A stretch of DNA of 64,000 nt from assembly GCF_000374445.1 (NCBI RefSeq), contig NZ_KB894409.1, positions 1 through 64,000 on the forward strand, in the 5' to 3' direction. This stretch comes from Actinokineospora enzanensis DSM 44649 (GTDB lineage: Bacteria > Actinomycetota > Actinomycetes > Mycobacteriales > Pseudonocardiaceae). The notes beneath the pieces are model-generated. The model ran no database searches. It had not been told where the DNA came from and saw only the letters and a list, made by a program, of their open reading frames with translations. The first letter of the stretch is position 1; every line of letters begins with the position of its first letter. This document shows, piece after piece, positions 9,033-43,458 of the stretch. Made by a program: the position numbers and the translations under genes.

Positions 9033-10646
9033 TCACATCCGGAAGACGCCGTAGCGGACAGGTTCCAGGGGCGCGTTGGCCGCGGCCGACAGCGCGAGGC
9101 CGAGCACCTGGCGGGTGTCGGCCGGGTCGATCACGCCGTCGTCCCACAGCCGCGCGGTGGAGTAGTACGGGTTGCCCTGGGCCTCGTACTGGTCGCGGAT
9201 CGGGGCCTTGAAGGCCTCCTCGTCCTCGACCGACCACTCGCCGCCGCCACCCTCGACCTGGTCGCGGCGGACCGTGGACAGCACCGAGGCGGCCTGTTCG
9301 CCGCCCATCACGCTGATCCGCGCGTTCGGCCACATCCACAGGAAGCGCGGCGAGTACGCCCGGCCGCACATCGAGTAGTTGCCAGCGCCGAACGAGCCGC
9401 CGATGACCACGGTGAACTTCGGCACCCTGGCGCACGCGGTGGCGGTGACCATCTTGGCGCCGTGCTTGGCGATGCCGCCCGCCTCGTAGTCGCGGCCGAC
9501 CATGAAGCCGGTGATGTTCTGCAGGTACAGCAGCGGGATCGAGCGCTGGTCGCACAGCTCGATGAAGTGCGCGCCCTTCATCGCGGACTCGGAGAACAGC
9601 ACGCCGTTGTTGGCCACGATGCCGACCGGGTGGCCGTGGACCCGGGCGAACCCGGTGACCAGCGTGGTGCCGTACTCCTTCTTGAACTCGCGGAACCGGC
9701 TGCCGTCGACCACCCGCGCGATCACCTCGCGCACGTCGTAGGGGGTGCGCGGGTCGGTTGGCACGACGCCGTAGAGGGTGGCCGGGTCGACCGCGGGCTC
9801 CTCGGTGGGCCGGACCTCCCACGGACGGGTGACGCGCGGGCCGAGGGTGCTCACGATCGAGCGCACGATGCGCAGTGCGTGCGCGTCGTCGTCGGCCAGG
9901 TGGTCGGTGACCCCGGAGACGCGCGCGTGCACGTCCCCGCCGCCCAGGTCTTCGGCGCTGACGACCTCGCCGGTGGCGGCCTTCACCAGCGGCGGGCCGC
10001 CGAGGAAGATCGTGCCCTGCTGCCGGACGATGACCGCCTCGTCGCTCATCGCGGGCACGTACGCGCCGCCCGCGGTGCACGAGCCGAGCACGGCCGCGAT
10101 CTGCGGGATGCCCTGGGCGGACATGGTGGCCTGGTTGTAGAAGATGCGTCCGAAGTGGTCACGGTCCGGGAACACGTCGTCCTGCCGGGGCAGGAAAGCA
10201 CCGCCGGAGTCCACCAGGTACACGCACGGCAGGTTGTTCTGCAGCGCCACTTCCTGCGCGCGCAGGTGCTTCTTGACCGTCATCGGGTAGTACGTGCCGC
10301 CCTTGACGGTGGCGTCGTTGGCGACCACCACCACCTCGCGCCCGGACACCCGGCCGACGCCGGTGATGATCCCGGCGGCGGGCGCGTCGTCGTCGTAGAG
10401 GCCGGTGGCGGCCAGCGGGGAGAGTTCCAGGAACGGCGAGCCGGGGTCGAGCAGCGAGTCGACCCGGTCGCGGGGCAGCAGCTTGCCCCGCGCGACGTGC
10501 CGGGCGCGTGCCTTCTCGGGCCCGCCCATGGCCGCGCGGTCGAGGCGTTCGCGCAGGTCGTCGACGAGTTCGCGGTGGCCTTTGGCGTTGCCGCGGCAGG
10601 CCTCGCCGGTCGGGTCCGCGGCGCTGCGCAGAACGGGCGCGTCCAT
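9033..10646 (-). CDS. accD1: Acyl-CoA carboxylase beta subunit, methylcrotonyl-CoA type
   Basis: A 537-residue carboxyltransferase with two crotonase-like halves. It has the MccB-type features [35 protein letters not shown] and [19 protein letters not shown]. The oxyanion-hole Gly pairs are in [15 protein letters not shown] and [14 protein letters not shown]. These are closer to methylcrotonyl-CoA carboxylase beta than to the AccD4/5/6 propionyl-CoA group. It is the first gene of the operon. The ATG at 10646 is preceded by a moderate GAGCGAGGAGCGAGA-type purine run. Two TetR-like palindromes lie in the promoter, so the operon is probably repressed until branched-chain acyl-CoAs accumulate (inference). 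Confidence 0.92.
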
Positions 10647-10679
10647 CTCGCTCCTCGCACTGGGGCCCCGACCAGCGGG

Positions 10680-10695
10680 GTTAGCAGCCGTTAAC
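10680..10695. promoter_or_regulatory. Imperfect TetR-type operator before accD1
   Basis: GTTAGCAGCCGTTAAC is an imperfect palindrome whose outer half-sites match the better site at 10708-10723. It lies 34-49 bp upstream of the accD1 start. Confidence 0.5.
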
Positions 10696-10707
10696 TTGCC
10701 AGATCAT

Positions 10708-10723
10708 GTTAGCGCTCGCTAAC
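10708..10723. promoter_or_regulatory. TetR-type operator before accD1
   Basis: GTTAGCGCTCGCTAAC is a 7-2-7 palindrome 62-77 bp upstream of accD1. A near copy lies in front of the TetR gene at 11800, tying regulator and operon together. Confidence 0.65.
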
Positions 10724-10855
10724 GGCAGCGTCCACCCGTATCAACTGCTCCTACCCGATCAGCTAAAACCCGACCAATCGGCGTGTCCGTCAGCCGCCCG
10801 ACGCGCGAGTGGCCGCCGCCCGAGCGGGCGACGGCCACTTCGGGAACGCGCTGGA

Positions 10856-11644
10856 TCAGCCGGTGACGGCGCGCAGGGCGGCGTAGTAACCGCTGTTCTG
10901 ACCTGCGACGTTGGGGTGGTAGGACTCGTCGATGGGCAGGGTGACGCTGTTCAACCAGCGCGCGCCGGACGCGCAGATCTCGTGCCCGGAGAACGCCGTC
11001 CGGCCGTCCACGAAGGTGAACCCGTGCGCGCCTGCCCGCTGGGAGATGACCGACGCCAGCACGTCCGAGGACTGGTTGATGGCCGACCGCTTGGTGTCGC
11101 TCAGCCCGACGATGCAGGACCCGTTGACCTTGTAGATGTGCGGGTAGCCCAGGACGACCACGCGCGCGGACGGCGCCTTCGCGCGGATCTGGTTGTAGAC
11201 GCTGTCCAGTTTGCCCGGCAACGTCGTGCGCGCGTAGTTCTGCGCGGTCTGGTTGCGGCTGACGCAGGCCGAGTCGGAGTTGAGGTTGCAGTCGGTCATG
11301 ACGCTGGAGAACCCGGCGTCGTTGCCGCCCACGGAGATGGTGACCAGCGCGGTGTCCGCGGTGAGCGAGCCGACCTGGCTGTTGAGCACGTCCGTGGTCG
11401 TCGCGCCGGAGCAGGCGACGAAGGCGAACGCGCTGGGGGCGTGCGACTTCGCCCAGAGCTGCGCGTAGGCGTTGGCGCTGCGCTTACAGGCGCCGCTGCT
11501 GCCGTAGGAGCCCGCGCCGAGACCCGACGAATAGGAGTCACCGAGGGCGACGTACTTGCCGACCGCCGCAGCGGCGGTGAGAGACAGTCCGAGCAGGGAT
11601 AACGCGGTGAGGGCGGCGATCAGGAGGGAACGGTGGACACGCAT
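10856..11644 (-). CDS. Secreted SGNH/GDSL hydrolase
   Basis: A 262-residue exported esterase/lipase-type protein. A Sec signal peptide (RSLLIAALTALSLLGLSLTAAAA) occupies about residues 5-27. Block I is YVALGDSYSSG with the nucleophile Ser, the block III GGND is in TISVGGNDAGF, and the C-terminal DESYHPN supplies Asp and His. Several Cys residues probably form disulfides. Family members hydrolyse lipid or polysaccharide esters outside the cell, and the substrate is not evident. It sits between the acc operon and the TetR gene but faces the same way as acc. Its promoter contains an 18-bp palindrome. Confidence 0.88.
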   Translation of the reverse strand: MRVHRSLLIAALTALSLLGLSLTAAAAVGKYVALGDSYSSGLGAGSYGSSGACKRSANAYAQLWAKSHAPSAFAFVACSGATTTDVLNSQVGSLTADTALVTISVGGNDAGFSSVMTDCNLNSDSACVSRNQTAQNYARTTLPGKLDSVYNQIRAKAPSARVVVLGYPHIYKVNGSCIVGLSDTKRSAINQSSDVLASVISQRAGAHGFTFVDGRTAFSGHEICASGARWLNSVTLPIDESYHPNVAGQNSGYYAALRAVTG

Positions 11645-11717
11645 TGCAGCCTCCGCAGGGAGGAGGGATTCCCGACAAATACCATCACTACCAGCAACGA
11701 CACCGATACGGAACCGG

Positions 11718-11735
11718 CCGGTAACTTGTTACCGG
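11718..11735. promoter_or_regulatory. 18-bp palindrome between hydrolase and TetR genes
   Basis: CCGGTAACTTGTTACCGG has perfect 8-bp arms around TT. It lies 74-91 bp from the SGNH hydrolase start and 65-82 bp from the TetR start, in the divergent promoter region. It resembles but is not identical to the GTTAGCG operators. Confidence 0.45.
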
Positions 11736-11759
11736 TTGCCAATCGCACAACGGGTGGAC

Positions 11760-34840: not shown

Positions 34841-35020
34841 GTGTACTTCACCGACCGCGGCATCGAAGAACTGGAAGAACGACGCGGCACCGACGAGGTG
34901 ACCCTGGCCTGGCTGGCCGACCGCATGCGCGCCTTCGTCGACAACAATCCCGAGTTCGAGACCGCTGTCGAACGCCTGGCCACCTTCCTCGCCCGCGACG
35001 ACGATGACTTCGAGGACTAG
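34841..35020 (+). CDS. DUF6104-like small protein
   Basis: A 59-residue acidic protein (YFTDRGIEELEERRGTDEV, then TLAWLADRMRAFVDNN, then FLARDDDDFED). This matches the small actinobacterial family, often annotated DUF6104, that tends to follow kgd. The function is unknown. GTG 34841 has GGAGG 8 nt upstream, making the start secure. Its TAG stop shares the CTAG palindrome with the stop of the convergent membrane gene. Confidence 0.82.
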   Translation: MYFTDRGIEELEERRGTDEVTLAWLADRMRAFVDNNPEFETAVERLATFLARDDDDFED

Positions 35021-36171
35021 CGGTTCGCCGTGACCTGCTGGTTCGGGGGCGGCAGCAGGCTCGGGGCCAGGCCGGTGACGAGCAGGGCGGCCAGGGTCGC
35101 GGCGAGGGCGTAGTTCTCCAACGGGGTCAGGTCCCGTTCGCCGGTGGGATACTTGGCGTGGGTGAAGAGGCCGAGGAAGCCGCGCATGGCGGTGATTCCG
35201 GCCAAGGTCTGGGCGCCTATCACCGCGACGGCGATGAATGGGGAAGCCGAGGCCAGCACCCGATGTTCGTCGGCAAACGTTGGTAACAGGGGAAAGCCTG
35301 CCAGGGCCATCGCGAAGATCAGATAGGCGAAGGCCATTCGCGGGGTGGCGGACAGGTCTCCGCCGGGGGCACCCAGGGTGAGCGGCTCGCGGCGGGCGGC
35401 GAGGATGGCGACGGTCATGGTCAGGCCTGCGGTGGCGACCAGGGCTACCGACTGGTCGGCGCCTGCCAACACCAGCCCGTGGGCGCTGATCAGCAGGTAT
35501 GCCAGTGAGCGACGGGCATCGACCAAGGCAACGGCGACCCATGCGGCGAGCAGGGCGGTGACGGCGCCCAGCCCGGGAGCGGCCACTGTGGACGGTAGGG
35601 GCATCGGCGCGCTCAGGTATGCGACCACGACGCTCAAGGGAGCGCGGGCGACGAAGCGCGGAAACCAGCTGTGCAGGGGAAAGACGGCCAGTCGGGCGGC
35701 GACAGCCAGCAGGAGGAATACGTCGCCGACCGGGCCGGGGAAGATCTCGCCCAGTCCCAAGAAGACAACAGCGGGAATCTGGTAGAGGACGAACAGCCGG
35801 TCCAACCCATCCGGGCGGTCGCGCAGCATCGACCACACCAGGACGATCGAGATCAGCCAGAGGCCGACATCGACGCCGGGAATGCGGATGGCCAGAAGAG
35901 CGCACGACACGGCCACGATTCGTAAGGCGCGGGACAGGATTGTCGGGGAGTGGGCGGCCGGGGTCAGGGCTGTGATGAGCAGTCCGGACAGGCATACGGC
36001 GATCAACGGGACGGCTGGTTCGCCGGGGATGGCCAGGCTGGATAGGGCCACGGCGACGATTCCGGTGGCCCAGCGGGTTGTGCTGCGGCGGGCCATGCGG
36101 GTGTCGGGGGCTCGGCTCGCGGCGAAGGCGGTGGCCTGCCAGGCGATGGCGGCGATGGTGGGGGCGATCAT
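35017..36171 (-). CDS. NuoM/MrpD-like proton-channel membrane subunit, short
   Basis: A 384-residue membrane protein with about 11-12 hydrophobic segments and the proton-antiporter M fold. AVAARLAVFPLHSWFPRFV corresponds to the conserved MGKSAQFPLHxWLP region with the key Lys replaced by Arg, and DARRSLAYLLISAHGLV corresponds to the DIKKxLAYS helix. AMALAGFPLLPTF matches the late NuoM ALAGFP motif. It is shorter than NuoM (about 500 residues) and partly degenerate, so it may be a partner subunit more than an independent pump. ATG 36171 overlaps the previous stop in ATGA. It is the last gene of the SulP operon. Confidence 0.75.
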   Translation of the reverse strand: MIAPTIAAIAWQATAFAASRAPDTRMARRSTTRWATGIVAVALSSLAIPGEPAVPLIAVCLSGLLITALTPAAHSPTILSRALRIVAVSCALLAIRIPGVDVGLWLISIVLVWSMLRDRPDGLDRLFVLYQIPAVVFLGLGEIFPGPVGDVFLLLAVAARLAVFPLHSWFPRFVARAPLSVVVAYLSAPMPLPSTVAAPGLGAVTALLAAWVAVALVDARRSLAYLLISAHGLVLAGADQSVALVATAGLTMTVAILAARREPLTLGAPGGDLSATPRMAFAYLIFAMALAGFPLLPTFADEHRVLASASPFIAVAVIGAQTLAGITAMRGFLGLFTHAKYPTGERDLTPLENYALAATLAALLVTGLAPSLLPPPNQQVTANR

Positions 36172-37385
36172 AACGGCGACTTCCAGGAAGTGATGCTGAT
36201 CCGCCGCGCCACCCGGTCGTCGGTGTCGGCGATGCGGCGGGCAGTGCGGAGCAGGTCGGCGAGGAGGCGGTCGATCAGGAGGGCGTCGACGTAGCCGCGT
36301 TCCAGGGCGAACCGGTACAGCCACGCGCGGATGGGCGCGGGGACCAGGCGTTCCCAGTGCCTGCCGGTGGGCGGGAGGGGGCCGCCGATGGCCTGTTCGA
36401 GGTGGTGGTGGTCGTGCAGGAGGCTCGGGGAGCGCAGGATCTGGCCGCTGCGCAGGAGGGCGTGCCCGCTCAGGTGGACGAGGGCGAGCATGTCCAAGCC
36501 GAGCCCGACCTCCACGAGCACCAGCGCCACCTGGGTCATCGACGCATAGGCGAGAGCGCTCTTGATGTCCGTCTGCACCCGCCCGACCAGCGTCGCGTAG
36601 ATGGCGGTCACCGCGCCGACGAGCACGACGGCCGGGCCGGTGACACCGTGGCGTAGCAGCAGGTACGGGCCGAGGCTGACCGAGATGGCGCCGTAGCAGA
36701 TGGCGCTCGACGGGGTCGGGCCCTCCATCGCGCGCGGAAGCCAACCGCCGAGCGGGAACTGGGCGGACTTGCCCATCGCCGCCCACAGCAGCAACAGGCC
36801 GACCAGCCACTCCGGCCCGCCTCGGTGGAGGGTGACGACGGCGCCGATGAGGCCGAGGTCGCTGACCCGGTAGGTGACGAACGCCCACAGCCCGTGGGCG
36901 ACCGGGCCCGGCCGGTGCTGGAAGTAGGCGATGAGCAGCGCCGATGCCAAGCCTGCGAGCTCCCAGCCGACCACGAGCAGGTCCAGCGAGCCTGCGAGCA
37001 CGATCAGTTCAACGGCGGCCACGAACAATGCGAGCAAGAGGTAGAACCGCCGGTAGCCGGGATCTCGGCGCAAGTAGCGCTGCGAGAACACAGCAATCAG
37101 ACAGCCGAGGAACGCGGCGAGCACGGCAACGGGCACGGCCACCCAGTCGGCGGTCAGGCTCGACGGGAAGCCGGGAAACCACTCGCCTAATGACACCGTC
37201 ATCGGGCCGTGCACGAAGCACACGATCGCCAGCCCGATCGCCGACAGCAACGCGCCTGCGAGGGCCGCGACGACCAACACCGACACGGTTTCCTCGGACC
37301 GCCCGCGCCGCAACCACAGAGCGAGCCCGAGAACGAAGAAGGCCAGCAGCGGCAACCCGACCGTCATGAGCAATAACGCATTCAT
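36168..37385 (-). CDS. NuoL/MrpA-like proton-conducting membrane subunit
   Basis: A 405-residue polytopic protein of the complex I/Mrp antiporter family. The conserved channel residues are visible: WELAGLASALLIAYF with Glu142 (NuoL E144 equivalent), MGKSAQFPLGGWLPRAM with Lys206, and VQTDIKSALAYASM with Lys275. The His helix of NuoL is replaced by CYGAIS. It lacks the NuoL C-terminal lateral helix. DabB of the DAB inorganic-carbon uptake systems belongs to the same family, but no DabA (DUF2309) gene is here; a SulP transporter precedes it instead. The start follows GCGGAGGCCCG. The last sense codon is TTA, within the ATGA overlap with the next gene. Confidence 0.82.
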   Translation of the reverse strand: MNALLLMTVGLPLLAFFVLGLALWLRRGRSEETVSVLVVAALAGALLSAIGLAIVCFVHGPMTVSLGEWFPGFPSSLTADWVAVPVAVLAAFLGCLIAVFSQRYLRRDPGYRRFYLLLALFVAAVELIVLAGSLDLLVVGWELAGLASALLIAYFQHRPGPVAHGLWAFVTYRVSDLGLIGAVVTLHRGGPEWLVGLLLLWAAMGKSAQFPLGGWLPRAMEGPTPSSAICYGAISVSLGPYLLLRHGVTGPAVVLVGAVTAIYATLVGRVQTDIKSALAYASMTQVALVLVEVGLGLDMLALVHLSGHALLRSGQILRSPSLLHDHHHLEQAIGGPLPPTGRHWERLVPAPIRAWLYRFALERGYVDALLIDRLLADLLRTARRIADTDDRVARRISITSWKSPL

Positions 37386-37534
37386 CGGGCCTCCGCGAGA
37401 CGGTTCAGGTTCGGGTTCGCGGTGACGATCGCGGACAGGCGTTCCGGGGAAGCCTCGACGATCAGCAGCAACCGCACCGGTTCCGGCAGCAGCACCAGGG
37501 CCTGTTCGACGAGGTAGCCGACCGGCACGCTCAT
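37382..37534 (-). CDS. 50-residue protein of the SulP operon, function unknown
   Basis: A small gene that overlaps the sulP stop (ATGA at 37534-37531) and the start of the NuoL-like gene (ATGA at 37385-37382). The double overlap is strong evidence that it is translated. The product begins MSVPVGYLVEQALVLL, continues PEPVRLLLIVEASPERL and ends NLNRLAEAR. It has one amphipathic/hydrophobic stretch (about 8-27), not clearly a membrane helix. No family is recognised. It could be an adaptor between the anion transporter and the proton-channel subunits (speculative). Confidence 0.7.
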   Translation of the reverse strand: MSVPVGYLVEQALVLLPEPVRLLLIVEASPERLSAIVTANPNLNRLAEAR

Positions 37535-39144
37535 GGCCGCCGCCTGCGGCGCAGCGAGTGCGGGTGCGCGGACACCGGGTCGAGCCCGTCGAGCCCCTCG
37601 ACGCGCAGGTCCGCACCGGGGAGCTCCTTGCCGAGCTGGTCCAGCCGGGCGAGGAAGGTGTGGTCGACCACCGCCACCTCACGGACGTCCACCACGACCT
37701 CGCGCACCCCGGAGCCCGCGCGGGCGATAGCTCGGCGCAATGGCAATAACGCGGGGAACACTGCGGCACCCGGGATCCGGACACGGAGCACGTCGCCATC
37801 TCGGAGTACTCGCAGCCGGGGCACGAACGCGGGGACCGGCACGCCGCGCAGCAGGTGCAGCACGATCTTCAGCGCCAGCCCGGCCGCGACGCCGATGAGC
37901 AGGTCCGTGGCCAGCGTGACGACCAGCGTGGTGAGGAACAGCGCGAGCTGGTCCCAGCCGATCCGGCCGACGTGCGCGAACTCGCGCGGCGCGGCGAGCC
38001 GGAAGCCGGTGTAGACGAGCATGGCGGCCAGCGCGGCCAGCGGGATGGTCTGCACCAGTCCCGGGACCAGCGCCACACAGAGCAGCAGGATCGCGCCGTG
38101 GCACACGTTGGACCAGCGGGACCGGGCCCCGGCGTCCAGGTTGGCCTTGCTGCGGACGATCTCGGAGATCATCGGCAGGCCGCCGACCAGCGCGACGGCC
38201 AGGTTGCCCGCGCCGATGGCGAACAGGTCGCGGTTGAGGTCGGCGGGCCTGCCGCCGGGGTTCATCGAGTCGACCGCGAGCACGGTGAGGGTGGACTCGA
38301 TGGTGCCGATGAGCGCGAACATCGCGATGTATTGCACCGAGGTGCCGCTGAAGACCTGCGCGAAATCCGGCAGGGTCACCGCGTCCAGCAATGATCCGGG
38401 CAATCGGACCAGGAACTCCGGGCCGAGGTGGAAGTCGGCCGCCGCGAAGTGGTAGTCGTGCGGGCGGTCCAGGTGCAGCCACAGCCCGATCGGCACCGCG
38501 ACCAGCAGTACGACCAGCGGCGCGGGCACGACCGTGCGCCACCGGGCCCGGATGAACGGCATCCCGAACAGGATGACCAGCGCGGCCGCGCCGATGACCA
38601 GGATCAGCGGGTTGGCGTGCGCGACGCTGTGCGGGATCTCGGCGAGCAGGCCGAGCGGGGTCTCCGCGCTCGGTTTCACGCCGAGCACCACGTGCGCCTG
38701 CTTGGCGATGATGATCACGCCGATCGCGGCGAGCATGCCGTGCACCACCGACGGCGACATGGCCACGCCGATCCCGGCCGCGCGGACCAGGGCGAACACG
38801 ATCTGCACCAGCGCGGCGACGGCCCCGGCGGCCAGCGCGCGCCGGTAGCCCGCGACCGCGTCGCCCGCGCCCAGGTCGTGCACGGCGCCGACGGCGATGA
38901 CGATGAGCCCGGCCGCCGGGCCCTTGATGGTCAGCGGGGCGCCGCCGAGCAGGCCGCCCAGGATGCCGCCGACAATGGCCGTGAGCACGCCTGCGACCGG
39001 CGGGAACCCACTGGCCAACGCGATTCCCAGGGACAGTGGCAGGGCGATGAGCGAGACCAGGAATCCGGACCGGAGATCACCGACGGGAAGGCGGCGACGC
39101 GGTTCGAGGGCGGCCGGGACCGACCTCGCGATCTGTTCGGACAT
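37531..39144 (-). CDS. SulP-family inorganic anion transporter with STAS domain
   Basis: A 537-residue SLC26/SulP transporter. After a short cytoplasmic start come about 12-14 membrane segments, beginning SGFLVSLIALPLSLGIALAS with the family's Pro/Gly-rich FPPVAGVLTAIVGG. IKGPAAGLIVIAVGAV is in the second repeat area, and DLFAIGAGNLAVALVGGLPM is typical of bicarbonate/sulfate SulP proteins. The C-terminal STAS domain covers about 435-525 (REVVVDVREVAVVDHTFLARL). The ion is not proven. Bicarbonate is favoured by the neighbours, and sulfate is the main alternative since no other sulfate genes are near. ATG 39144 follows AAAAAGGAAGCC. Confidence 0.9.
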   Translation of the reverse strand: MSEQIARSVPAALEPRRRLPVGDLRSGFLVSLIALPLSLGIALASGFPPVAGVLTAIVGGILGGLLGGAPLTIKGPAAGLIVIAVGAVHDLGAGDAVAGYRRALAAGAVAALVQIVFALVRAAGIGVAMSPSVVHGMLAAIGVIIIAKQAHVVLGVKPSAETPLGLLAEIPHSVAHANPLILVIGAAALVILFGMPFIRARWRTVVPAPLVVLLVAVPIGLWLHLDRPHDYHFAAADFHLGPEFLVRLPGSLLDAVTLPDFAQVFSGTSVQYIAMFALIGTIESTLTVLAVDSMNPGGRPADLNRDLFAIGAGNLAVALVGGLPMISEIVRSKANLDAGARSRWSNVCHGAILLLCVALVPGLVQTIPLAALAAMLVYTGFRLAAPREFAHVGRIGWDQLALFLTTLVVTLATDLLIGVAAGLALKIVLHLLRGVPVPAFVPRLRVLRDGDVLRVRIPGAAVFPALLPLRRAIARAGSGVREVVVDVREVAVVDHTFLARLDQLGKELPGADLRVEGLDGLDPVSAHPHSLRRRRRP

Positions 39145-39218
39145 CGTGAGGCTTCCTTTTTCAGGACGCGACGGGGAACCTGCGCCGTCACTTTCCGACG
39201 AGGTTTGCGAAGAAATCG

Positions 39219-39527
39219 TCAGCGTCCCACCGGCGGGCCGCGGGCCGCCAAGACCGCGCCACCGGATTCCGCGGGAATGGGCGTGGCACCGGAGTCGACC
39301 ACCGCGTACCAGGTCGCACGGAGCACCGATTCGGTCCCCAGCAACGCCGCTACCTGGCCGTTTACCGGAATGGAGATCGAGACGGCCGCTCCCCGGGAAA
39401 CCGGGTCGGCATCGGTCCTGATCTGTTCGGCCGGGGTGCAGCGGTGCCCCACCCCGGCCGCGCACGGGGTCGTCGCGAGTCCGGCCGCGGCCAGCAGGGC
39501 CACCAGGAACAGCGCGACCGAGCGCAT
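39219..39527 (-). CDS. Small secreted protein, first gene of the SulP operon
   Basis: A 102-residue protein with a Sec signal peptide (RSVALFLVALLAAAGLATTPCAA, cleavage near residue 24). The mature part has two Cys (one at the signal end, one in HRCTPAEQIR) and a beta-rich core (AAVSISIPVNGQVAALLG, then ATWYAVVDSG). The first Cys follows TTP, so a lipobox is unlikely. GGGGGAGGTCCGCC before the ATG is a very strong ribosome site. It lies 74 bp before sulP on the same strand. The family is not recognised; a periplasmic accessory to anion transport is possible. Confidence 0.72.
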   Translation of the reverse strand: MRSVALFLVALLAAAGLATTPCAAGVGHRCTPAEQIRTDADPVSRGAAVSISIPVNGQVAALLGTESVLRATWYAVVDSGATPIPAESGGAVLAARGPPVGR

Positions 39528-40818: not shown

Positions 40819-43458
40819 ATGGGCGAAACCTGGATGTGGGCGGTGTTGGTGGTGGCCGCTATCCCGCTGGCACTGGTCGTGGACCGGCATCGCCGTCCGT
40901 CGTTCGACCGCCGGTACCAGGCGTTCATTCTGCGGACGCTGCACTTCATCGACCTCAAGGGCCTCCAGACCCTCAGTCACACCGGCCTGGCCTTCGACGC
41001 CGTGTACATCGAGCTGAGCCTGGTTCAACGCGCGCCGCACGAGGTAGGCACACACCTGCTCCCTGAGATCCCTCACGACACGCGGGAGCGGTTCCGCATC
41101 GAACGGACTCTCGACCGGGATCAACCGAGCCTGTTGGTCGTGCTCGGCGGGCCGGGCAGCGGCAAGACAACCCTGTTGCGGAAGACCGCCCGGGAGATCT
41201 GCCAATCCTCTTGGCGCAGGTCCGTACCGATGCTGCTCTACCTGCGCGACCACATCCCCGCGATCACCGAGGGAGCGCCGCTACCTGCCCTGATGCGGGC
41301 AAAGCTCGGGCTGCTCGCGCAGCACGAGCCCACCGGGTGGTTCGACCGGCAGCTCGCGGATGGGCGCTGCGTGGTCATGCTCGACGGCTTGGACGAGGTC
41401 GCCGCCGCCGATGACCGTGCGCGGGTGTCGGCCTGGGTGGACGAGCAGGTGCGGCAGTACCCAACCAACGACTTCGTGGTGACCTCCCGCCCCCAGGGCT
41501 ACCACGATGGGCCGATCGAGGGCGCCACAGTGCTCCAGGTGCGGCCGTTCACCACCGGACAGGTGCGGACTTTCGTACACGGCTGGTACCGGGCGTTGAT
41601 CCAACCCGGAACGGGCGAGTCGGCTGAGGCGGCTCGGGATCTCGCACGTCAGGACGCGGACGACCTGCTGACCCGGCTGGACGCTGCGCCCGCGCTGGGC
41701 GATCTGACCGTAAACCCGCTGTTGCTGACCATGATCGCGACCGTTCATCGGTTTCGTGGGGCGCTGCCGGGGTCGCGGGCGGAGCTGTACCGGGAGATTT
41801 GCGAGGTCATGCTGTGGCAACGCCAGAAGGCGAAGAACCTACCGGTCGGGCAACGCAGCCGCTACAAGCTGACACTGTTGCGAGCAGCGGCCTTCGAGAT
41901 GATGTCACGCGGTGTCCGACAGTTGCCGCGCCTGGAGGTGCTGGAACAGTTTACCAAGTTGCTGCGGCGGCTGTCGACGCCATTGAACGCGGAGGACTAC
42001 CTGCGTGAGACGATGTCGGACGGACTGTTGGTCGAATGGGAGAAGGACGAGTTCGGCTTCGCCCACATGACCTTCCAGGAATACCTGGCCGCCACGCACA
42101 TCCAGGATCGGGGCTTGGTCGATACCCTCGTCTACGCGGTGGACGACCTGTGGTGGCGCGAGACGACACTCCTGTACACCGCGAACGCGGACGCTGACCC
42201 GATCATGATCGCGTGCCTAGCCTCAGGCACTGCCCCGGCCCTCGCGCTCGCCCTGGATTGCCTGACTGAAGGCGTGGAGATGGCCGAAGACCTCCGACTG
42301 GACCTGGAGCGACTACTGGAGTCCGTTGTAGACGATTCGTTAGGAGCCGAACGCAGGCCGGTGATCGCTCGTGTCTTGGCTACCCGATTACTGCGCGACA
42401 CTGTTCCTACAGCCAACGATGTCTCCATGCTATGTGGGCCAGTACCAGCGAACCTATACCGCCTGTACCTCACCGACACTGGACAAACCGAATTAACTGC
42501 CGGCCGCGGCAACGAACCCGTAGCAGGCGCCAGCTTCATCAATGCACATGAGTTCTCAAGGTGGCTCACGAAGATCAGCGGTGCCCGAAAACGCTTCCGG
42601 TTGCCAACGGAGACCGAGGCCCAACAGGGGCGCCCCAAGTTAGACGGACTTGCGTTGTGGACATCCAGTGGCGATCTCTGGGCATTAGAGAAGCCAGCAG
42701 AACCGATCACCGATGTAGACTTGCAAAGACAGATCACCAACGACTTCGTCGCCCAACTATTCCCCTATGTCGAGGGCTGGCAAACTTACAACAGGACCCT
42801 CCAGATCGTCGAACGCCGACGCGGGATCCGGGTCCCGCCGATCTGGCCTGACACAGATCATGACTGGTCATCTACACCTGTTTCAAGCCATACCGATCTT
42901 GTCCTCTTTCACCGCAGGCCCACCAGTTCGGCACTGGCCCAAGGATCCGTGGGCAGCGTATTGAGCCTGCCACGCAACGCAGGCGAGCGGTGGACGTTCC
43001 GCAATCAATGGGGCATGGCTGTCTCTGAGGTCTTCGCTGACCATATCGTCCGCGATCTAAAAGAGGATTTCGTCTCGACTGCGGCGCGCCGCTTTCTCGT
43101 TGTGACCGGAGTGGCCGATCTCCATGTAGAGCCGGTCGAAGTAGGAGAACTACCCGGCATGCTGGACCGGCTCTGCACATTTCTGGACGAGAATAGCGGA
43201 TCGTGGACTTGGTACCAGGTCATGGCTGCTCGACTACGACAACTGGCCACGGGTCCATTCACAGGCGGCCTGGTCGATGCGGAAACCGCAGCCAAGGTGC
43301 GACTGCTATCAGTCACACTCGCTAGCGAGCCCATTGTGCGGAACCTACTACAGCGGCAACGCCTACTGTATTTTGCCACTGGAATCACCCTGTTGGAGCG
43401 ACGCTGGGCGGGCCAACTTCCGCCACGGGAAACGATCGTACTCGCGGTGACACAGTAA
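40819..43458 (+). CDS. Membrane-anchored NACHT-domain NTPase with FGE-like segment
   Basis: An 879-residue STAND NTPase. An N-terminal membrane helix (MWAVLVVAAIPLALVV, residues 6-21) is followed by a short linker and the NACHT core. Walker A is GGPGSGKTT at 110-118, Walker B is VVMLDGLDEV near 190, and VTSRPQGYHD is the sensor motif. TVNPLLLTMIATVHRF and MTFQEYLAA are typical NACHT helices. Residues of about 567-640 (PVAGASFINAHEFSRWL, then RFRLPTETEAQQG) resemble a worn formylglycine-generating-enzyme/SUMF1 fold, which here probably binds ligands. Related bacterial NACHT proteins (bNACHT) give phage defence. Five TTA codons and lower GC after about 42,300 suggest acquisition. Single gene; the role is inferred. 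Confidence 0.82.
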   Translation: MGETWMWAVLVVAAIPLALVVDRHRRPSFDRRYQAFILRTLHFIDLKGLQTLSHTGLAFDAVYIELSLVQRAPHEVGTHLLPEIPHDTRERFRIERTLDRDQPSLLVVLGGPGSGKTTLLRKTAREICQSSWRRSVPMLLYLRDHIPAITEGAPLPALMRAKLGLLAQHEPTGWFDRQLADGRCVVMLDGLDEVAAADDRARVSAWVDEQVRQYPTNDFVVTSRPQGYHDGPIEGATVLQVRPFTTGQVRTFVHGWYRALIQPGTGESAEAARDLARQDADDLLTRLDAAPALGDLTVNPLLLTMIATVHRFRGALPGSRAELYREICEVMLWQRQKAKNLPVGQRSRYKLTLLRAAAFEMMSRGVRQLPRLEVLEQFTKLLRRLSTPLNAEDYLRETMSDGLLVEWEKDEFGFAHMTFQEYLAATHIQDRGLVDTLVYAVDDLWWRETTLLYTANADADPIMIACLASGTAPALALALDCLTEGVEMAEDLRLDLERLLESVVDDSLGAERRPVIARVLATRLLRDTVPTANDVSMLCGPVPANLYRLYLTDTGQTELTAGRGNEPVAGASFINAHEFSRWLTKISGARKRFRLPTETEAQQGRPKLDGLALWTSSGDLWALEKPAEPITDVDLQRQITNDFVAQLFPYVEGWQTYNRTLQIVERRRGIRVPPIWPDTDHDWSSTPVSSHTDLVLFHRRPTSSALAQGSVGSVLSLPRNAGERWTFRNQWGMAVSEVFADHIVRDLKEDFVSTAARRFLVVTGVADLHVEPVEVGELPGMLDRLCTFLDENSGSWTWYQVMAARLRQLATGPFTGGLVDAETAAKVRLLSVTLASEPIVRNLLQRQRLLYFATGITLLERRWAGQLPPRETIVLAVTQ

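Follow-up and report, generated by a model that had tools for sequence, protein, structure and literature searches.

We analysed a stretch of 64,000 nucleotides from Actinokineospora enzanensis DSM 44649 (NCBI RefSeq assembly GCF_000374445.1, contig NZ_KB894409.1, positions 1 to 64,000), hereafter called the window, and concentrated on a minus-strand operon in which a SulP anion transporter gene is joined to genes for a NuoL-type and a NuoM-type membrane subunit. This operon is very probably a SulP-DAB inorganic-carbon operon (sulP-dabA-dabB-nuoM-like) whose dabA gene has been deleted in frame to a stump of 50 codons. The stump is dabA, the relatives have an intact dabA in the corresponding position, and the zinc site of the enzyme is absent here. 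The window locus is best seen as a degraded representative of an operon type already published. What appeared to be a new complex of SulP with proton-channel subunits is that operon type minus its enzyme gene, and a tempting misreading is corrected. The features are as follows.

39219..39527, minus strand: 102-aa protein encoded ahead of SulP, N-terminus resembling a signal peptide by eye; no Pfam match
37531..39144, minus strand: predicted SulP/SLC26-family anion transporter, 537 aa; PF00916; orthologue of SulP in SulP-DAB operons
37382..37534, minus strand: dabA stump, 50 codons; C-terminal match to PF10070, no zinc-site residue left
36168..37385, minus strand: dabB-like (NuoL-type) membrane subunit, 405 aa, intact; PF00361, NuoL fold
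35017..36171, minus strand: NuoM-type membrane subunit, 384 aa, intact; weak PF00361, NuoM fold
37480..37483, minus strand: point where the ends of the larger deletion, of some 780 codons, meet; GAAC in the window, ancestral sequence putative
37391..37396, minus strand: approximate point where the ends of the smaller deletion, of 71-75 codons, meet; overlap of the stop codon with the start of the following gene retained

A dabA remnant between SulP and the NuoL-type gene

Residues 17-48 of the 50-residue frame matched positions 712-743 of the 747 positions of the Pfam DabA model PF10070 (E 0.0023, 16.9 bits). When scored against a DabA profile built from the relatives, the frame reached 31.7 bits, compared to 5.2 bits for the best of 2000 shuffled sequences, 1180 of which gave a reported score. 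The C-terminal part alone accounted for 30.5 bits and the first 18 residues alone for -1.6 bits; these 18 residues were assigned to the start of dabA by their position and by tblastn (E 0.004 for L038, 0.13-0.35 for the others). In an alignment with eight full-length DabA proteins, the stump consists of the original dabA start, a block of around 30 codons that lies close to the C-terminal end in full DabA, and probably the final three codons. Judged from its sequence, the 50-codon frame derives from dabA and is not a new protein. An earlier reading of the same DNA, made from the sequence alone (the sequence-only reading), had described it as a 50-residue linker protein. An unrelated small linker joining SulP to the channel subunits would fit an open frame that is flanked by an ATGA overlap at either end, but given the DabA match and the full dabA, with no separate small gene, at the same place in the relatives, we ruled it out and leave it next to no probability.

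None of the DabA active-site residues C351, D353, R355, H524 and C539 is left in the stump, which therefore does not qualify as the DabA of a DAB complex, and nothing of the finger-helix region of DabA remains either. With both the zinc site and the finger helices gone, the window operon should not hydrate CO2.

Eight genus relatives carry the complete operon

A NuoL-type gene was detected at E 1e-50 or better in 9 of the 16 Actinokineospora genomes. Full-length DabA, above the cut-off, is present in eight of these nine carriers, the exception being the window genome. In all eight, dabA (901-907 codons) begins at the SulP stop and precedes the NuoL-type gene. Its end lies at the NuoL-type start or at most 10 bases from it in six of the eight, and gaps of about 90 and about 400 bases were seen in L040 and L043, respectively. 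SulP orthologues (E 1e-190 or better) were found in 10 of the 16 genomes, with 80-84% identity in seven relatives and 68-69% in two. The kinship with DAB inorganic-carbon systems that the sequence-only reading had proposed is borne out by the stump and by the full dabA of the relatives. Its proposed search for the gene order gave a divided outcome: SulP beside NuoL- and NuoM-type genes is conserved, but what lies between them in the eight relatives is a full DabA and not a small gene.

At the locus of Actinokineospora iranica (L064, 8455-16147), SulP stands alone between the same aldo-keto reductase (AKR) and oxoglutarate dehydrogenase (OGDH) genes, and DabA, DabB and a NuoM-like gene were not found there. 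This SulP-only locus is a precedent for erosion here.

Distribution of the SulP-DAB operon

Named genomes were scanned with a SulP alignment. The 80 loci described here are the best-scoring of at least 515 confirmed candidates, and the DabA fraction therefore applies to close SulP relatives only. According to the record titles, they span Actinomycetota, Myxococcota, Acidobacteriota, Planctomycetota, Armatimonadota, Bdellovibrionales and Proteobacteria. DabA was located downstream of SulP in 76 of the 80 loci, with a median gap of 63 bases between the profile matches. DabB then followed in all 66 testable loci (10 of the 76 had too little sequence for the DabB test), and 48 of the 56 loci that could be assessed also had a NuoM-like gene (10 of the 66 had less than 2 kb after DabB). 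The order SulP-DabA-DabB is conserved well beyond actinobacteria. The sequence-only reading had suggested that SulP takes the place of DabA; the two occur together in the eight other genus carriers and in 76 of these best 80 loci, and SulP replacing DabA as a general design was rejected. SulP is not a substitute for DabA; the window has a SulP-DAB operon that lost its DabA by deletion.

The four loci that lack DabA are L059, L064, L104 and L115. DabB was likewise not found in them, although the downstream sequence amounts to no more than 2.1 kb in L104 and 3.0 kb in L115. At L059 (Streptosporangium violaceochromogenes), DabA and DabB were not found within 21.8 kb; SulP aligns there as two segments of a single frame (10001-11392 and 11582-11758), with extra residues between them.

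Within the order, DabA was present in 25 of the 397 sampled genomes. SulP lies upstream of DabA in four of these 25 loci (three being genus members already counted), a NuoL-type gene lies upstream, in the order dabB-dabA, in 20, and one is a short fragment.

Two probable in-frame deletions

The stump would be accounted for by a pair of deletions that both keep the frame, one of about 780 codons and one of 71-75. The sides of the larger deletion share a short word in the relatives (CGAGC in L038) and the window has GAAC; GAAC on both sides was found in no single relative. The placement of the smaller deletion depends on the last three codons only. Compared to each of six close relatives, 8-10 of 30 stump residues differ.

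The genome is a draft of 87 contigs and one genome per species was compared, so dabA could be intact in the organism with its ends joined in the assembly. In-frame junctions inside one 234-kb contig, together with so many changed stump residues, are atypical of assembly error, and a search of the window genome up to E 10 gave no other DabA match and hence no DabA piece elsewhere. We regard such an artefact as very unlikely.

The neighbouring membrane proteins

The five frames and three ATGA overlaps lie on the minus strand where the sequence-only reading had placed them. From the frame coordinates the overlaps are at 37531-37534, 37382-37385 and 36168-36171, and the first two were also read in the sequence. 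The small secreted protein that it had put ahead of SulP is the 102-aa frame; homologues of this fast-evolving protein (31-42% identity) are found immediately upstream of SulP in five of eight relatives.

PF00916 matched SulP with E 4.6e-50 over residues 197-569 of a longer 712-aa frame, which places the protein in the SulP/SLC26 family. With 119.7 bits against a cut-off of 880 for the BicA model NF050096, it was not assigned to BicA. The NuoL-type subunit matched PF00361 with E 9.3e-29, and its AlphaFold2 model (mean predicted local distance difference test score, pLDDT, 85.9) resembles NuoL. The NuoM-type subunit matched the same family weakly (22.4 bits, cut-off 21.5), and its model (mean pLDDT 93.5) resembles complex I subunit M (8e9g_M; template modelling score, TM, 0.82 by query length). 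The NCBIfam cut-offs for complex I were not reached, with 176.1 against 407.5 bits for TIGR01974 (NuoL) and 35.2 against 263.8 bits for TIGR01972 (NuoM).

Directly after the dabA stump, the 405-aa frame is intact, as a NuoL-type DabB beside dabA. It retains E142, R173, D176, K206, K275, H304, H308 and R312. Glu142, Lys206 and Lys275, which had been noticed from the sequence as residues of the proton path, are indeed present and invariant in all 23 aligned sequences, which span several phyla.

Residue contrasts between SulP-linked and other DAB systems

DabA2 of the Halothiobacillus neapolitanus DAB2 has a zinc site (C351, H524 and C539) with D353 and R355 as the other active-site residues, and a two-helix finger of DabA2 enters DabB2 and gives Glu444 to the probable periplasmic half-channel. 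Mutation of zinc-site residues or of Glu444 impaired or abolished rescue of E. coli, and DabB2 has Ile151 in place of the gating Glu of NuoL (PMC13144422).

We compared 93 DabA sequences from L044-L148 that are longer than 700 aa and free of stop or frame problems. The SulP-linked sets (73 DabA, 72 DabB) include L146 and L147, which are the same genomes as L063 and L045. The non-SulP class was defined by a NuoL-type gene upstream within 1.5 kb, regardless of any SulP farther off. All five active-site residues, mapped by counting along the alignment of the relatives' DabA with DabA2, are kept in 73/73 SulP-linked and 20/20 other DabA proteins; intact SulP-linked DabA should therefore hydrate CO2.

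The Glu of the NuoL gating ion pair (the Glu144 equivalent) is retained in 72/72 SulP-linked DabB proteins, in contrast to 0/20 of the others; these DabB2 equivalences rest on constant number offsets and a NuoL alignment and not on a residue-by-residue comparison with 9rd0_B. In the finger region, an alignment-window count found a Glu within about 10 residues in 20/20 non-SulP but only 5/73 SulP-linked DabA proteins. A regular expression for this Glu (7/20 non-SulP, 14/73 SulP-linked) had been too crude and was superseded by that count. An Arg lies near the place of Glu444 in 60/73 SulP-linked DabA proteins, an equivalence that falls in a low-confidence alignment stretch, with a MAFFT alignment placing the Glu about five columns away. 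These Glu contrasts in DabB and in the DabA finger suggest that protons move differently in the two DAB classes. In SulP-linked complexes, completing or gating the proton path may fall to the NuoM-like subunit instead of the DabA finger. Counting against this idea, the NuoM-like subunits have Arg or other residues (read by eye) at what we take to be the two channel lysine positions of NuoM, and they may therefore be structural; the NuoM-type subunit of the window has Arg at these positions by eye.

Selection on the remaining genes

For the window branch relative to its sister L036, the ratio of omega (non-synonymous to synonymous divergence) had bootstrap intervals (5-95%) of 0.87-1.71 for SulP, 0.62-1.26 for dabB and 0.46-1.43 for the nuoM-like gene. 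The flanking controls gave 0.47-1.33 (OGDH) and 1.14-3.06 (AKR), so that omega of AKR was higher on the window branch than on L036. Omega is here a simple Nei-Gojobori/least-squares estimate on a fixed tree of seven genomes and not a branch model; the single-gene trees of OGDH (window with L041) and of NuoM and AKR (L037 and L038 unpaired) depart from the fixed tree. Relaxed selection on the window branch was not detected for SulP, dabB or the nuoM-like gene, and as a proof of decay it was discarded. Since no relaxation is detectable, a recent loss and a surviving reduced complex are both possible.

Some results weigh against a dabA deleted from a SulP-DAB operon. The Pfam DabA score of the stump is under the curated cut-off of 25 bits. 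Two deletions that both preserve frame and overlap have a chance of about 1 in 9 and are less likely than one. SulP, dabB and the nuoM-like gene without relaxed selection would also fit continued function. The window-branch non-synonymous divergence (dN) of the stump, 0.153 compared to 0.086 and 0.074, has overlapping intervals and is not significant, with 43 codons being too few.

The intact channel residues and three intact large proteins, the lack of detected relaxation, and the frame and overlap preserved by both deletions would all suit a reduced working complex, in which SulP, stump, DabB and NuoM-like subunit would together import an anion (bicarbonate) in an energised manner although DabA is missing. 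The dabA-less state is found in only one of nine genus carriers, though, and the four DabA-less SulP loci among the best 80 show no DabB either, two of them with just 2-3 kb downstream. Moreover, the finger helices of DabA complete the DabB half-channel in DAB2 (PMC13144422), and the stump is without that region. We therefore consider this complex unlikely. It is quite unlikely, too, that SulP, DabB, the NuoM-like subunit and the DabA tail act as a stripped-down proton-coupled anion importer with the tail kept as a docking or coupling peptide; if they did, SulP-DAB complexes would have, besides the hydration of CO2, a transport function that can be separated from it.

Possible consequences of the loss of dabA

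In the intact operon, DabA would hydrate CO2 at its zinc site, powered by proton flow via DabB, the NuoM-like subunit would form a second membrane arm, and SulP would carry bicarbonate or another anion. In the window genome, vectorial CO2 hydration of the DAB type would be lost and SulP may still function alone, while dabB and the nuoM-like gene would have stayed intact, in frame and coupled in translation, after a loss that is fairly recent. Bicarbonate could then come from beta-carbonic anhydrases, including a SulP-carbonic anhydrase frame on contig C20. Most simply, dabA was lost recently and the organism possesses beta-carbonic anhydrases in any case. Because dabA is naturally deleted here while the rest of the SulP-DAB operon is intact, the locus lends itself to asking what role SulP, DabB and the NuoM-like subunit have when DabA is missing.

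At least two matches to PF00484 (beta-carbonic anhydrase) were found in each of the 16 genus genomes. A second SulP (38% identity) lies in the window genome (G000) at contig C20:1547-3640; a match to beta-carbonic anhydrase comes after it, and the open frames that hold the two are equally long (776 aa). The equal frame length indicates that the two are probably a fusion, and a comparable pair with equal frame lengths was seen in 16/16 genus genomes.

Other genes of the window genome

A separate cluster of three PF00361 genes on contig C40 is presumably complex I. Adjoining the aldo-keto reductase gene of the window, a NACHT/STAND nucleoside triphosphatase gene (40819-43458, plus strand) matched NACHT with E 5.9e-13 and weakly matched the antiphage model EruA (45 bits, cut-off 1000). 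Related NACHT genes adjoin the aldo-keto reductase in L041 and lie elsewhere around the operon in L036 and L037. The surroundings of the operon are possibly a hot spot of defence genes.

Comparison with known systems

Both membrane subunits are predicted to share antiporter-like folds with NuoL and NuoM of complex I and with the cyanobacterial NDH-1MS (6tjv), but the NADH and quinone modules of complex I were not seen in the window operon. The SulP bicarbonate transporters BicA and SulP-CS of Thiomicrospira pelophila (PMC12628692) have the SulP family in common with the window; the window SulP, however, is far under the BicA model cut-off.

Compared to DAB2 (DabA2-DabB2, PDB 9rd0), the DabA of the relatives is homologous (E 2.3e-64) and has all five active-site residues, and the DabB-like profile matches 9rd0_B with E 2.3e-25. 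In contrast to DAB2, the window is without DabA and its DabB is short (405 versus 551 aa), and the SulP-linked class adds SulP and mostly a NuoM-like subunit.

The sequence-only reading knew of no described system with such a composition, yet one was published in 2017. According to the COGNAT study (PMC5700660), COG0659 (sulfate permease) and COG1008 (NuoM) are often found in neighbourhoods that have ybcC upstream of nuoL, a group called 'clade C'. The SulP-DAB neighbourhood was not encountered in the accessible portions of PMC13144422, PMC9080137, PMC12628692, PMC10880623 and PMC4725956; Desmarais 2019 or the 2019 paper on the diversity of CO2-concentrating mechanisms (CCM) could describe it. 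The clade C ybcC operons (PMC5700660) bring together the four gene families considered here, likewise as neighbours, and all eight genus relatives correspond to them fully. The window differs from clade C in that COG3002/dabA is only 50 codons long, while the order and all families are otherwise there.

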